Source of the DNA: Pyrus communis
Lineage: Eukaryota; Streptophyta; Magnoliopsida; Rosales; Rosaceae
Length of the DNA: 64,000 nt
Assembly: GCF_963583255.1 (NCBI RefSeq)
Contig: NC_084805.1
Location: forward strand, 5,411,060-5,475,059
Reading direction: 5' to 3'
Part shown: positions 36,211 to 40,060 of the stretch, piece by piece
Layout: each line of letters starts with the position of its first letter
Numbering within the stretch: the first letter of the stretch is position 1
Notes under the pieces: generated by a model
Told to the model about the DNA's origin: nothing
The model's database searches: none
What the model saw: only the letters and a program-made list of their open reading frames with translations
Position numbers and translations under genes: made by a program

Positions 36211-37332
36211 TGTTTGGGCCCAAAATATTATTGCTGGGCCGAGCAGCAGGATGTGCTCGGCCCAATGAGATGATAAATACTATGGGCCGAATAATAGGGT
36301 CCGGGCCAGCTAACAGGGTCGGCCAAATCTTATCATAAGTAGTCCAGATAAATAGAAAGGTCGAGGAAGTCCTGGTGCAACTAGGATTCCCGACCAGCAA
36401 GGAATGAAGCCCCGAAAAGAAGGAAAATTCAGAATCCCAGTAGGAGTAGGTTTGTTCGAGGAAGAGGCAAATTGGGACAAGGACTCCCAATCCAAATCGG
36501 AGTCGGTTTCAGGGAATGGGGCACTATAAATACAAGAAATCATGCAACAGAAAAGGACCTAAAAATCAGCATACAATTGCCCTGCGCAAAACCTCTCAAC
36601 ACCTTGAGATTTTTTTCCTTTTCTTTTCCTGCCGACACACCTTCAGTTTGGATAAACAGCACTGTGGAAGCGCCCGGCGAGCACCTTCAGTTTGGATAAA
36701 CAGCACTGCTGCCGCAGAATCAGCCGACCGAGAAGCATCTTCAGCTTGGATAAACAGCACTGCGTCGAGGTCGACCGATTATCTATCCAAGTCTCGGTCG
36801 AGAAAGGTTTTCGAACCTTTGTTGGCAGAGGTCACCTTGCTAGCCTTCTCGGCATAGTTAGGTGTTACGAATTACATTGCTCGGCGTACTGGTCGCCGAG
36901 TGGTTTTATGATTGGATACTCACAAATGAGTTTCAGGGTTCGGCATTCCGACGACCGAACTACGTTTACCATCAAGACATACATCACGTTCGAGTACTTG
37001 TGCCCATACACCTTGGTCTCGATTCGACGTGCTTATACTCTCACGAATATAATCACAGTGACCGAATCGGGCTCGGACGATTTGTGAACTCCGCAGAATT
37101 AGCAGCCTTGTCTTCAGGCTGTAGAACCCAGAGACCGAGAGTGTTCCTTCCTCGGTCGCAATCGCAAGTTAAAGAAGTCAGCGACGCGCTCAAAGCTACA
37201 TCAACAAATTTTACTCCTCGGCCAGACTCGGCCGACGAGTTGGCACGCCCCGCATTCGACCAAAGGACGTAGTTAGCTTATTAGTTACTCGGCCTGCGCG
37301 CCACGTAGGTTTTGTAATTTTTAGGGTCAACA
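36211..37332 (+). repeat. 3' LTR of gypsy B
   Basis: It is nearly identical to 23523-24643. The differences seen are mostly transitions, for example C/T at the third copy of the 25-bp motif and one extra T in the run near 36611. Confidence 0.9.
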
Positions 37333-37337
37333 GTATT

Positions 37338-37894
37338 ATAATGAAATATTTTTTTTTTCACATGATGACATTGAGATTAAGGGTCCATTAAACTATATAA
37401 TGAGCCGATAATAATTTAGAATCGAATTATTTGTTTATAAACTTTGAATATGAGATATTCTAATTATAATTTGACAGAAATACTAGTTGCATTTTAAAGC
37501 TACACTCAAATGATTTAGTTAAATACTGCAATTTTTTTTTAACTAACGATATTATCTACATTAAGGCAGTGAGAGAGTGGGCTAAGCCTCAAAATAGGCT
37601 AGCAATAATGTGGTTCAAATTCATTTTTGGCAATAATCGAACTAAGACCTCTCACTTACAAGTGAAGAAGAATATCACTAGATCTTAGTGCTAAGTGACA
37701 ATACTACAATATATTAAGTACGTGCTAATAGTTTATAACAAATAAATACTCGAAAATATTGTACTCATTTTCACCCTACTAAGATTTTCAGATTGGAAAA
37801 CTAAATACAGTACCTTACCTATCTAGTTGTCCGGTTTTGCACAATGTCATATGGAAAATTAAAATTAAAACAAAACCGAATATTAGCTAGACCG
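37338..37894. other. Intergenic DNA
   Basis: No gene. The stretch 37585-37695 is a dispersed repeat (gcctcaaaataggctagcaa ... gaactaagacctctcactta). Its first half matches 420-470 and 1258-1300, and its second half matches 63130-63230. Confidence 0.45.
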
Positions 37895-37903
37895 TATTGA
37901 ATT

Positions 37904-38053
37904 GGGAAGTGACTTTCACACTTTTTTTTATTAACTTCTCACACATTTCTTTTTGTTTCTGGTTATCAGATTGAAAATGTTAAATAGAATAAACGGCCAA
38001 AATTAAGCAAATATTTGCAAAAGGCTAAAACTGGTGTGTGTTTATCATTTCCC
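37904..38053. mobile_element. 150-bp MITE with a 9-bp target duplication
   Basis: Ends GGGAAGTGACTTTCACAC and (reverse complement) GGGAAATGATAAACACAC. They are flanked by a perfect 9-mer TATTGAATT at 37895-37903 and 38054-38062. A 9-bp duplication suggests mobilisation by a Mutator-type transposase. Confidence 0.7.
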
Positions 38054-38109
38054 TATTGAATTTTGATGGATCTTGCAAAGCTAAACCCAGAATCACGAGG
38101 CTGGATCAA

Positions 38110-38319
38110 GGAAAGAGATCCTCTCCAGATCTCTCCCTCCAAAGTCTAGGGATCAAGTGATCCAAGCCTTTAAAATTTGATCAAACAGCTAAAAACAGAT
38201 GAAGTAAAAACTTTTAAAAGCTATAATAATTTTTAGTCGTTTAATGAAATTTTAAAGGCCTGGATCACTTGATCCTTGGATTTTGGAGGGAGAGATCCGG
38301 AGGGGATCTCTTTCCTTCC
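38110..38319. mobile_element. About 210-bp inverted-repeat MITE
   Basis: The arms are about 85 bp each: ggaaagagatcctctccaga ... ggatcaagtgatccaagcct, against its complement ending ggggatctctttcc. The spacer is about 40 bp. It can fold into a near-perfect hairpin. No target duplication was recognised. Confidence 0.6.
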
Positions 38320-38374
38320 GAACTATTCTATGCATATTATGCATCCTTTATTTATTTGTTTATTTTTCCCTCTA

Positions 38375-38553
38375 TGTCACATCCCGGTCTGGGGCAGATC
38401 ACTTCCCGGGACGATGTGAGATGTCACAATCCACCCCCCTTAGGGGCCCGACGTCCTCGTCGGCACACTTCCGGCCAGGGATTGGCTCTGATACCAATTT
38501 GTCACATCCAGGCCCGGGGCGGATCACTTCCCGGGACGATGTGGGATGTCACA
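38375..38553 (-). mobile_element. 179-bp LTR retroelement (miniature TRIM)
   Basis: Two 54-bp LTRs (38375-38428 and 38500-38553) have TG...CA ends. The internal region is only 71 bp. The duplication CTCTA is perfect (38370-38374 and 38554-38558). On the minus strand the 5' LTR begins TGTGACATCCCACATCG. After it, TGGTATCAGAGCC (38496-38484) matches the 3' end of initiator tRNA-Met. Just before the other LTR is the purine-rich AAGGGGGGTGGAT (38441-38429). It is thus a structurally complete LTR element without genes. The LTR tips resemble those I remember for Cassandra-type TRIM elements of this plant family, but the 5S-like core is missing. The LTRs differ at about five positions. Confidence 0.85.
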
Positions 38554-38763
38554 CTCTAGCTTTATTTATGTATTTTTTTTCTCTAGCTTACTTGTTAGGT
38601 GAGCAAAAAGCCGATTGGACCGGGATGAAACCAATTCAAGAACTTGGGTTAGGTTTATATGCTAAAGTAATTTGATTTTGAACGAAACTGAATCAACCGC
38701 GTCATATTAAGTTTGGTTATCAAACCAAACCGCATATATTTCAGCTTAATGTTATATAACAAA

Positions 38764-38900
38764 GGGTGGTACTATCCAGACACCCATTATTACATGCTAC
38801 ACATTACTCTCAATTTCGCCTGTTGAATTGAATTGATTAAATAACAAAAATTAATATAGTGTGTATGAAAAGTAAAAATAGGTTTGTGGATAGCACCGCT
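38764..38900. mobile_element. 137-bp MITE-like element
   Basis: Inverted ends GGGTGGTACTATCCAGACACC and (reverse complement) AGCGGTGCTATCCACAAACC. It is a relative of the 535-661 element. The target duplication was not resolved. Confidence 0.45.
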
Positions 38901-39404
38901 TTTTATAAATAAAAGCTTTTTTTAGTTTCTTCCATTTGTTAGTTATCTTATTCCCTCCCAAACTTTGACATCGAGTTATAAACCATGCATCTCTCTTTAA
39001 ATTCCTCTTTTTTCTCGTTATGAAGTTCATCAGTACTGTTCAACACAAAATTGAAGTTCCTCTTGACTTATATATGTTATAGAATAAAGAGTATTCTCTT
39101 AGTTGTTTGTTTAAGGAACATTTACAACCCGGCAATTTACTATATTAATTTCGTTTGGTTTGATTATGCAACTAATTTGATGTTCATAGTTTGTTTTTGT
39201 CGATTACTCGTTTTTGTATCAGTTCACTTTTTCGTGCGTCGTCAATGTTTTTGTTGCAATCTACGTACTACATATCATTTGCGTTGGTGATTTTCATTTG
39301 CCTTCAAGACTAGAGAAGGATTTGAGTAGAAAGGGTTGCCATGTAATGGTTTTTCAAACTAATCATATATTGTTTGTGTGAACCACTTGAAACGTCGCTA
39401 GAAT
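38901..39404. other. Intergenic DNA
   Basis: No supported gene. The right part (about 39290-39404) may be internal sequence of the LTR remnant that follows. Confidence 0.35.
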
Positions 39405-39756
39405 GGCAACCTTGATACCAACTTGTCACACCCCGATTTTCAATCTTCCTTTTTCGCTTAAGGGTGTGAAAAAAATAAAAAAAATAAAAACTACAGCTCA
39501 AGGAAAACTAGATGGGAAAAAATCCAGAGAGAAACTTTGATTCAAACAAAAGTAAATTGCATGGTACCATTACAAGAAAAGTAAAGGAAAAGAAACAACA
39601 CATTCTCAACTTATTTTTTTTTCACAAGGCCAAGTGTAAACATTTACAAGAAGATCTTGAAGTTTCTGGACCACGGACTAAACTTCCGGTTGAAACCCTG
39701 CAACAAATTCATAAAGGGCGAGCCCTAAAAACTCAGCATGGGTCCTTTTTCTAACA
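39405..39756 (-). mobile_element. LTR retrotransposon remnant (one LTR plus primer site)
   Basis: On the minus strand an LTR of about 333 bp runs from TGTTAGAAAAAGGACC (39756) to GGGGTGTGACA (39424). Three bases later comes TGGTATCAAGGTTGCC (39420-39405), a tRNA-Met-like primer site. The rest of the element is missing. Confidence 0.5.
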
Positions 39757-39832
39757 TATTTTATTATTACATAAGAGATAAACTGCATGGGTCCTTTGTC
39801 TAACATATTTTATTATTACATAAGAGACAAAT
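39736..39832. repeat. Tandem duplication, 49-bp unit
   Basis: Two copies begin 'gcatgggtccttt(t/g)t' at 39736 and 39785, and share 'ctaacatattttattattac' and 'ataagaga'. Confidence 0.65.
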
Positions 39833-40060
39833 TAACTCAAGATAAAAAAGAAAATTATATATTATCTTAATGAATATTATACATTTTTTTTAAAACAAAT
39901 ATAAAGATTAATTTAACCTTGTAATTATGTAATTAAATGTTAAAAAATTGTAGGGTTCCAATTCATTGCTGTGGAAGATTTGTTTAAGTAGCAGCAACTT
40001 TTCCTAAAGGACATCACTAATGGATGGTACAAATCAAATAAAAATAACAATCCTTAATTT
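39833..40060. other. AT-rich spacer
   Basis: Nothing was recognised. Confidence 0.35.

Follow-up and report, generated by a model that had tools for sequence, protein, structure and literature searches.

A 179-bp LTR element in pear, probably a dead-end miniature of Cassandra

Background

The closest described systems to the element analyzed here are Cassandra (PbrCassandra in pear), a TRIM with a 5S rRNA-like LTR, and the SMART elements of grasses. A 5S rRNA-like promoter region in the LTR marks an element as Cassandra 'by definition' (PMC10853983), and the RNA of Cassandra is described as running from the 5S part of the 5' LTR to that of the 3' LTR, its two ends sharing about 18 bp (PMC10886601, 2024). 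In pear, 252 complex Cassandra elements with three to five LTRs were reported in 2015 (PMC4668562). Template switching has been proposed for TRIM and Cassandra arrays in a paper that also discusses multi-LTR Cassandra (PMC7215508). Among the SMART elements, FRetro129 is 292 bp long and has LTRs of 85 bp (PMC3281118, 2012); the value of 292 bp, repeated in 2024 (PMC10886601), is the smallest LTR element size that we found in print in the open-access literature.

The element reported here lies in a stretch of 64,000 nucleotides of Pyrus communis DNA, referred to as the window. It shares with Cassandra an interior that is identical at 69 of 69 nucleotides to two full copies (L003 and L005), the LTR ends, the primer-binding site (PBS), the polypurine tract (PPT) and a 5-bp target-site duplication (TSD), but its LTRs are 54 bp long rather than 284 bp and lack the 5S-like core that defines Cassandra. 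The interior and the LTR ends are those of Cassandra, but with the 5S region missing the window element does not itself count as a Cassandra under the definition of PMC10853983. Like FRetro129, the window element is very small and non-coding, with TG...CA LTRs and a 5-bp TSD; FRetro129, however, belongs to a multi-copy grass family (PMC3281118), whereas the window element is a 179-bp single derivative of Cassandra sequence. The Cassandra-like TRIMs of Carduoideae also combine a Cassandra-related interior with an LTR that has no 5S promoter, but they are described as carrying other LTR sequences and a TATA box (PMC10853983), whereas the window LTR is simply a full Cassandra LTR with a deletion. 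The tandemly arrayed TRIMs and multi-LTR Cassandra elements, too, are rearranged Cassandra insertions with TSDs; it is the number of units that changes in them (PMC4717578, PMC7215508 and PMC4668562), whereas in the window the LTR itself is shortened. Since multi-LTR Cassandra and template switching have already been discussed, this kind of error was to be expected. The new part is the two-sided product without a core, and earlier notice of such forms in the pear Cassandra literature is possible.

Results and discussion

Anatomy of the window element

An earlier note on this DNA had described a structurally complete LTR element of 179 bp with a PBS motif, a polypurine tract and a perfect CTCTA TSD, and all of these features are present (Table 1). 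The element spans positions 38375-38553, is composed of 54 + 71 + 54 bp and has TG...CA ends. Its sense strand is the minus strand: the LTR at 38500-38553 is the 5' LTR because TGGTATCAGAGCC lies next to it, and AAGGGGGGTGG adjoins the LTR ending at 38428, which is the 3' LTR in element sense. The 13-nt PBS is presumably a match to the initiator tRNA-Met. With direct LTRs, TG...CA ends, PBS, PPT and a 5-bp TSD, the anatomy is that of TRIM and SMART elements, and a span of 179 bp would leave no room for a coding region. Between the two LTRs there are 5 differences in 54 sites, four of them transitions. A BLAST comparison of two full copies with the window found no other Cassandra pieces in it. 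An empty version of the insertion site was sought in the genome that contains the window by way of the right flank, which has no second copy there except repeat pieces (best 40 of 146 candidates scored).

Table 1. Features of the short Cassandra-derived element in the window (strand as in the element; positions are those of the window)
Feature	Position	Strand	Basis
TSD, left copy, CTCTA	38370..38374	.	sequence
3' LTR (element sense), 54 bp	38375..38428	-	sequence comparison
Deletion junction zone in the 3' LTR: single remaining repeat, here GGGAAGTGATCT; GGGAAGTGATCC in the full copy L003	38396..38407	-	
Non-coding interior, 71 bp	38429..38499	-	69 nt from PBS to PPT as in full Cassandra copies L003 and L005
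Polypurine tract AAGGGGGGTGG (one T), adjoins the 3' LTR	38431..38441	-	sequence inspection
Primer-binding site TGGTATCAGAGCC, 13 nt	38484..38496	-	motif
5' LTR (element sense), 54 bp	38500..38553	-	sequence comparison
Deletion junction zone in the 5' LTR: remaining repeat GGGAAGTGATCC	38521..38532	-	
TSD, right copy, CTCTA	38554..38558	.	sequence

Descent from full-length Cassandra

The genome search space comprised 487 Mb in 29 contigs. Among the best 40 of 2,136 candidates scored, a 189-bp query matched only itself at full length; all other scored matches cover at most 140 bp and end inside the LTR, and the best of them are 94-97% identical over 134-140 bp. Chance or low complexity as the source of the stretch was rejected, as it matches Cassandra copies genome-wide. 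Control scans with backward patterns gave no matches at fixed length, and the gapped scan described below gave 5 control matches versus 104 real ones.

Seven loci read from the match list (L002-L008) are ordinary Cassandra. Six of them (L003-L008) are simple elements of 284-71-284 bp; identical 5-bp TSDs flank five of these, whereas at L005 the two ends differ by one base. The seventh locus, L002, is a multi-LTR array. The Cassandra-like origin suggested in the earlier note is borne out by the 69-nt stretch from PBS to PPT, which is identical to that of L003 and L005, and the internal deletion said to be shared by both LTRs is equally clear, each 54-bp LTR being a full 284-bp LTR minus 230 bp.

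The layout of the full LTR accounts for the missing part. Repeat 1, CCCAGGGAAGTGATCC, lies at positions 18-33, the 5S-like region at about 73-184, and repeat 2, CCCGGGAAGTGATCCG, at 249-264; the offset between the two repeats is exactly 230 in full LTRs. The 54-bp LTR is made up of the outer parts of the full LTR joined at the direct repeat GGGAAGTGATCC, one copy of which is kept, and the 230 bp that are gone correspond to the 5S-like core with one copy of the flanking repeat. Of all exact direct repeats, the core-flanking one is the longest in each of the six full LTRs compared, with 12 bp in two of them and 8 bp in the other four. In shuffled LTRs the longest repeat averages about 7.4 bp and goes up to 11, such that only the 12-bp form exceeds them, and 8 bp is often reached. 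Rfam matches to 5S in both LTRs of the full copy L003 span the whole model, but at 29.6 and 29.0 bits they do not reach the gathering score of 38; the same search found no 5S match in window positions 37000-40000.

Short LTRs across the genome

Pattern scans of the genome, combined with the reading of loci, identify 14 LTRs of 54 bp with the repeat junction, located at 10 places; the pattern scans also count 7,144 full LTR starts and 3,752 LTR-PBS joints. This census relies on patterns, and mutated short LTRs are therefore missed; the length of '54 bp' is from ungapped comparison, in which no insertions or deletions are allowed, and a gapped scan served as the length check. The ten places are: the window (short-short, TSD CTCTA); an insertion at C11 with three short LTRs and two interiors (TTTAC); one at C16 in which a core-keeping LTR without its first bases stands between two short ones (TAACA); a solo short LTR at C7 (AAGTC); a full-short element at C1 (TTACT); a short-full-full element at C4 (ATCTC); a second place at C4, where a short LTR is followed by a longer array, read only partway and not to its end; short LTRs inside arrays of full LTRs at C5 (TTAAT) and C6 (AGAAC); and a short LTR inside a damaged array at C9. 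All of these TSDs except that of the window were read by eye. At seven of the ten places (C1, both at C4, C5, C6, C7 and C9) the short LTR is solo, one-sided or inside an array, and at three (the window, C11 and C16) the repeat junction is found at both ends together with intact TSDs.

Some of these loci, and one related to them, have features of their own. The solo 54-bp LTR at C7:10411308-10411351 (L013) lies, as judged by eye, inside an apparent retroelement polymerase reading frame. The insertion at C16:20278702-20279180 (L016, L020) has three LTRs, the outer two short and the inner one 5'-truncated, with interiors of two subtypes; its outer LTRs share GGATATGACA, whereas the LTR between them lacks GGATATGACA but keeps the core. 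At C2:5870610 (L021), a Cassandra 5' LTR contains an inverted 5S core and itself ends in the short junction, while the other LTR is ordinary and the TSD, read by eye, is CTTAC. L021 is not among the 14, as its junction sits in a longer, inverted-core LTR.

The gapped scan covered LTRs of 42-71 bp and left length and junction free. Apart from palindromes and unrelated stretches, the 100 of its 104 matches that were listed include 11 rows for 54-bp LTRs with the repeat junction, one row for L021, and seven non-palindromic, short LTR-like rows of 45-59 bp with other junctions. Four of the latter were read (L041, L044, L047 and L067), and three are represented by scan rows only (C4:24404900, C10:1806607 and C13:13121961). 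L044 (C1:27444985) and L067 (C3:28747860) have a 5' LTR of 50-55 bp and a long 3' LTR, with TSDs GCAAG and CCACA, respectively; L047 (C1:36943274) is a 45-bp solo LTR with a near-TSD; and the start of L041 is damaged. A scan for LTRs of 71-101 bp found three, one inside an array and two in which only the 3' LTR is short (L082 being one-sided), and this is a low count since the scan was stricter than the gapped one. LTR shortening uses several junctions, of which the repeat junction is the commonest and the sole kind seen at both ends. The existence of one-sided short LTRs with other junctions indicates that shortening is confined neither to the core-flanking repeat nor to both ends of an element.

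Origin of the two-sided short form

During LTR reverse transcription, both LTRs of the cDNA are made from the single U3-R-U5 of the minus strand. One deletion in the minus strand is therefore enough to shorten both LTRs within a single round, and the template need not be short. On balance, we lean towards the view that the window element is a dead-end miniature of a full Cassandra element, generated when the first strand transfer went wrong and led from the U5 repeat to the U3 repeat. The placement of R on which this rests is that of PMC10886601: if the RNA starts and ends inside the 5S part, repeat 1 would fall in U3 and repeat 2 in U5. Synthesis of the minus-strand strong-stop DNA would start at the PBS, copy about 35 nt of U5, including the U5 repeat at about 21-36 nt from the PBS, and halt in the GGGCCCGGG block. 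The nascent strand would then pair with the U3 repeat at the opposite RNA end and thus bypass both R and the core, and completion of the cycle would place the shortened U3/U5 into both LTRs, giving 54 bp each, before the short cDNA integrates with a 5-bp TSD. Since the 5S-like promoter region is gone from the product, and R too if R lies there, propagation by the Cassandra route is unlikely. The three short LTRs at C11 are not given by one slip of the reverse transcriptase alone and need an extra step, such as unequal exchange.

The version put forward in the earlier note, in which transcription, reverse transcription and insertion all started from a copy that was short already, appears improbable. 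Several short-LTR insertions with different TSDs do exist, and the C11 insertion, with its three short LTRs and two interiors, could be read in the same way. The earlier note had proposed a search for copies with different duplications, and this did turn up other 54-bp-LTR places with seven other TSDs, but none with the window junction. Its letters, GTCCCGGG, are found nowhere else: among 12 matches at up to three mismatches genome-wide, only the two window LTRs carry GTCCCGGG and the other ten do not, leaving the claim that the shrunken form was copied unsupported. The short copies differ from one another in junction letters and interior subtype, and wherever an interior is kept at the other short places, its subtype is not that of the window, which makes these places look like separate origins. 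A multi-copy lineage of the TRIM or SMART kind is accordingly not seen among the 54-bp-LTR places, which differ from the window in junction and, where present, in interior subtype. The loss of the 5S-like promoter region, and of R as described in PMC10886601, also speaks against a mobile short form. There is no evidence that the short window form multiplied. What stands of the earlier interpretation is the Cassandra origin, the shared deletion and the TSD, but not the short form as a template; likewise, the proposed lower size limit applies to the making and integration of an element and not to its use as a template.

A wrong transfer has a stronger rival in loss of the core in place after insertion, from one LTR by repeat-mediated recombination or replication slippage and from the second likewise or by conversion, although we regard this as rather unlikely. 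Such losses would account for the one-sided short LTRs with TSDs at C1 and C4, for the 54-bp LTRs inside the arrays at C5 and C6, and for the one-sided short LTRs with other junctions (L044, L067 and L082). They are less easily reconciled with the number of two-sided insertions. If LTRs lose the core independently, 0.0034 adjacent short pairs are expected among 3,500 pairs and 0.0048 among 5,000, an estimate that takes its rate from seven single cases versus 7,144 full starts and ignores differences in repeat length between copies; three short-short insertions (the window, C11 and C16) are observed against this genome-wide expectation of only 0.003-0.005 for two independent losses. Moreover, both window LTRs have the rarer form of the junction, with C for A, which occurs in 3 of the 14 short LTRs, and in both it is preceded by the same T; at C16 the two outer LTRs agree with one another but differ from the one they enclose. 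The shared junction form in the window and the match at C16 are compatible with the outer LTRs being copies of a single intermediate. In-place loss combined with LTR-to-LTR gene conversion is nevertheless a possible alternative to the wrong transfer.

The divergence of the window LTRs bears on the same question, since LTRs that look older than the interior favor in-place loss. The two LTRs differ at 5 of 54 positions, whereas for six close full relatives the corresponding positions give 6 differences in 324 (Fisher p 0.012); relative to the interior, which is unmutated, the figures are 5 of 108 versus 0 of 69 (p 0.16). The LTRs look older than the interior, and this sits uneasily with one simple age. 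Gene conversion between the LTRs, or exchange with other copies, could be the source of the excess differences. Substitution rates for LTR dating are 1.3e-8 and 6.5e-9, and with these the 5/54 divergence (95% CI 3-20%) corresponds to 3.9-7.7 My, a range too wide to use.

We also considered, and rejected as very improbable, that the 54-bp LTR is the ancestral form that predates insertion of the 5S region, the repeats being a fossil duplication and the window element a survivor. The repeats do flank the 5S-like core, Cassandra-like TRIMs without 5S are described in some Asteraceae (PMC10853983), and SINE3 insertion into an LTR has been put forward as a speculative origin (PMC10886601). The window interior, however, does not differ from that of L003 and L005, which are full copies of the present day, and the remaining short copies belong to other interior subtypes, so the short forms are nested among the full ones.

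Palindromic mini-LTRs

A different class of short LTR also came to light in the gapped scan. Among the 100 of 104 matches listed, 24 are palindromic mini-LTRs of the form TGTCACATCCCGGCC...GGCCGGGATGTGACA, consisting of two inverted U5 ends, and 21 of the 24 are 49-51 bp long. Examples are C2:15856384 (L050), C1:27080261 (L042) and C5:17765889, in addition to 21 other places. Five decayed look-alikes (L040, L068, C6:22325350, C6:28480813 and C13:22805239) were left out of the count, and the leading TGT is assumed in the 17 palindromes for which no locus was read. The palindrome is on the PBS side in six of the seven loci read, a placement for which the query required a PBS; the seventh, L045, is unplaced. 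The clearest case is L050, with the palindrome as its 5' LTR, a full 3' LTR and a perfect TSD, GTAAT. A 5-bp match at a doubtful end is found at L052, the TSDs of L063 and L058 are one base off, and none was seen at L042 and L055.

To judge from their sequences, the palindromes seem to have their turning point in the U5 block GGGCCCGGG as well. In their case, the strand would have copied U5 up to this block and folded back on a second U5 pass, leaving the 3' LTR full. Both classes of short LTR might then be brought together, tentatively, by regarding GGGCCCGGG, which lies some 35 nt inside U5, as a hot spot for minus-strand stops: a jump to the U3 repeat on the first pass would give 54-bp LTRs without R at both ends, a snap-back on the second pass would give palindromic 5' LTRs of 49-51 bp, and about 12 nt of fortuitous U5/U3 homology would replace R and suffice for strand transfer, second-strand synthesis and integration, down to an element of 179 bp.

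One of the palindrome loci has a further feature. On the reverse strand of L052, at about 1548-1630, the stretch that follows the palindromic LTR resembles, by eye, a degenerate copy of initiator tRNA-Met ending in CCA. A whole tRNA copy in L052 was considered and not used, as neither ARAGORN nor Rfam reports a tRNA there.

Implications

If the wrong-transfer reading is true, these fossils show that one round of reverse transcription and integration can do without R, the promoter and about 80% of the LTR, and that a short repeat shared by U5 and U3 can stand in for R when the first strand transfer takes place. How small an LTR element can be would then become a question for the bench, with ready-made constructs. 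There is also a warning for annotators: the LTR finder of the SMART study is described as requiring LTRs of at least 50 bp and a distance of at least 100 bp between them (PMC3281118), and at these limits elements like that of the window are borderline or lost.

In the left flank of the window element, positions 38108-38317 contain a 210-bp fold-back that is 81% self-complementary and has a sub-threshold Rfam match to MIR7533 on both strands; this fold-back is probably a MITE.
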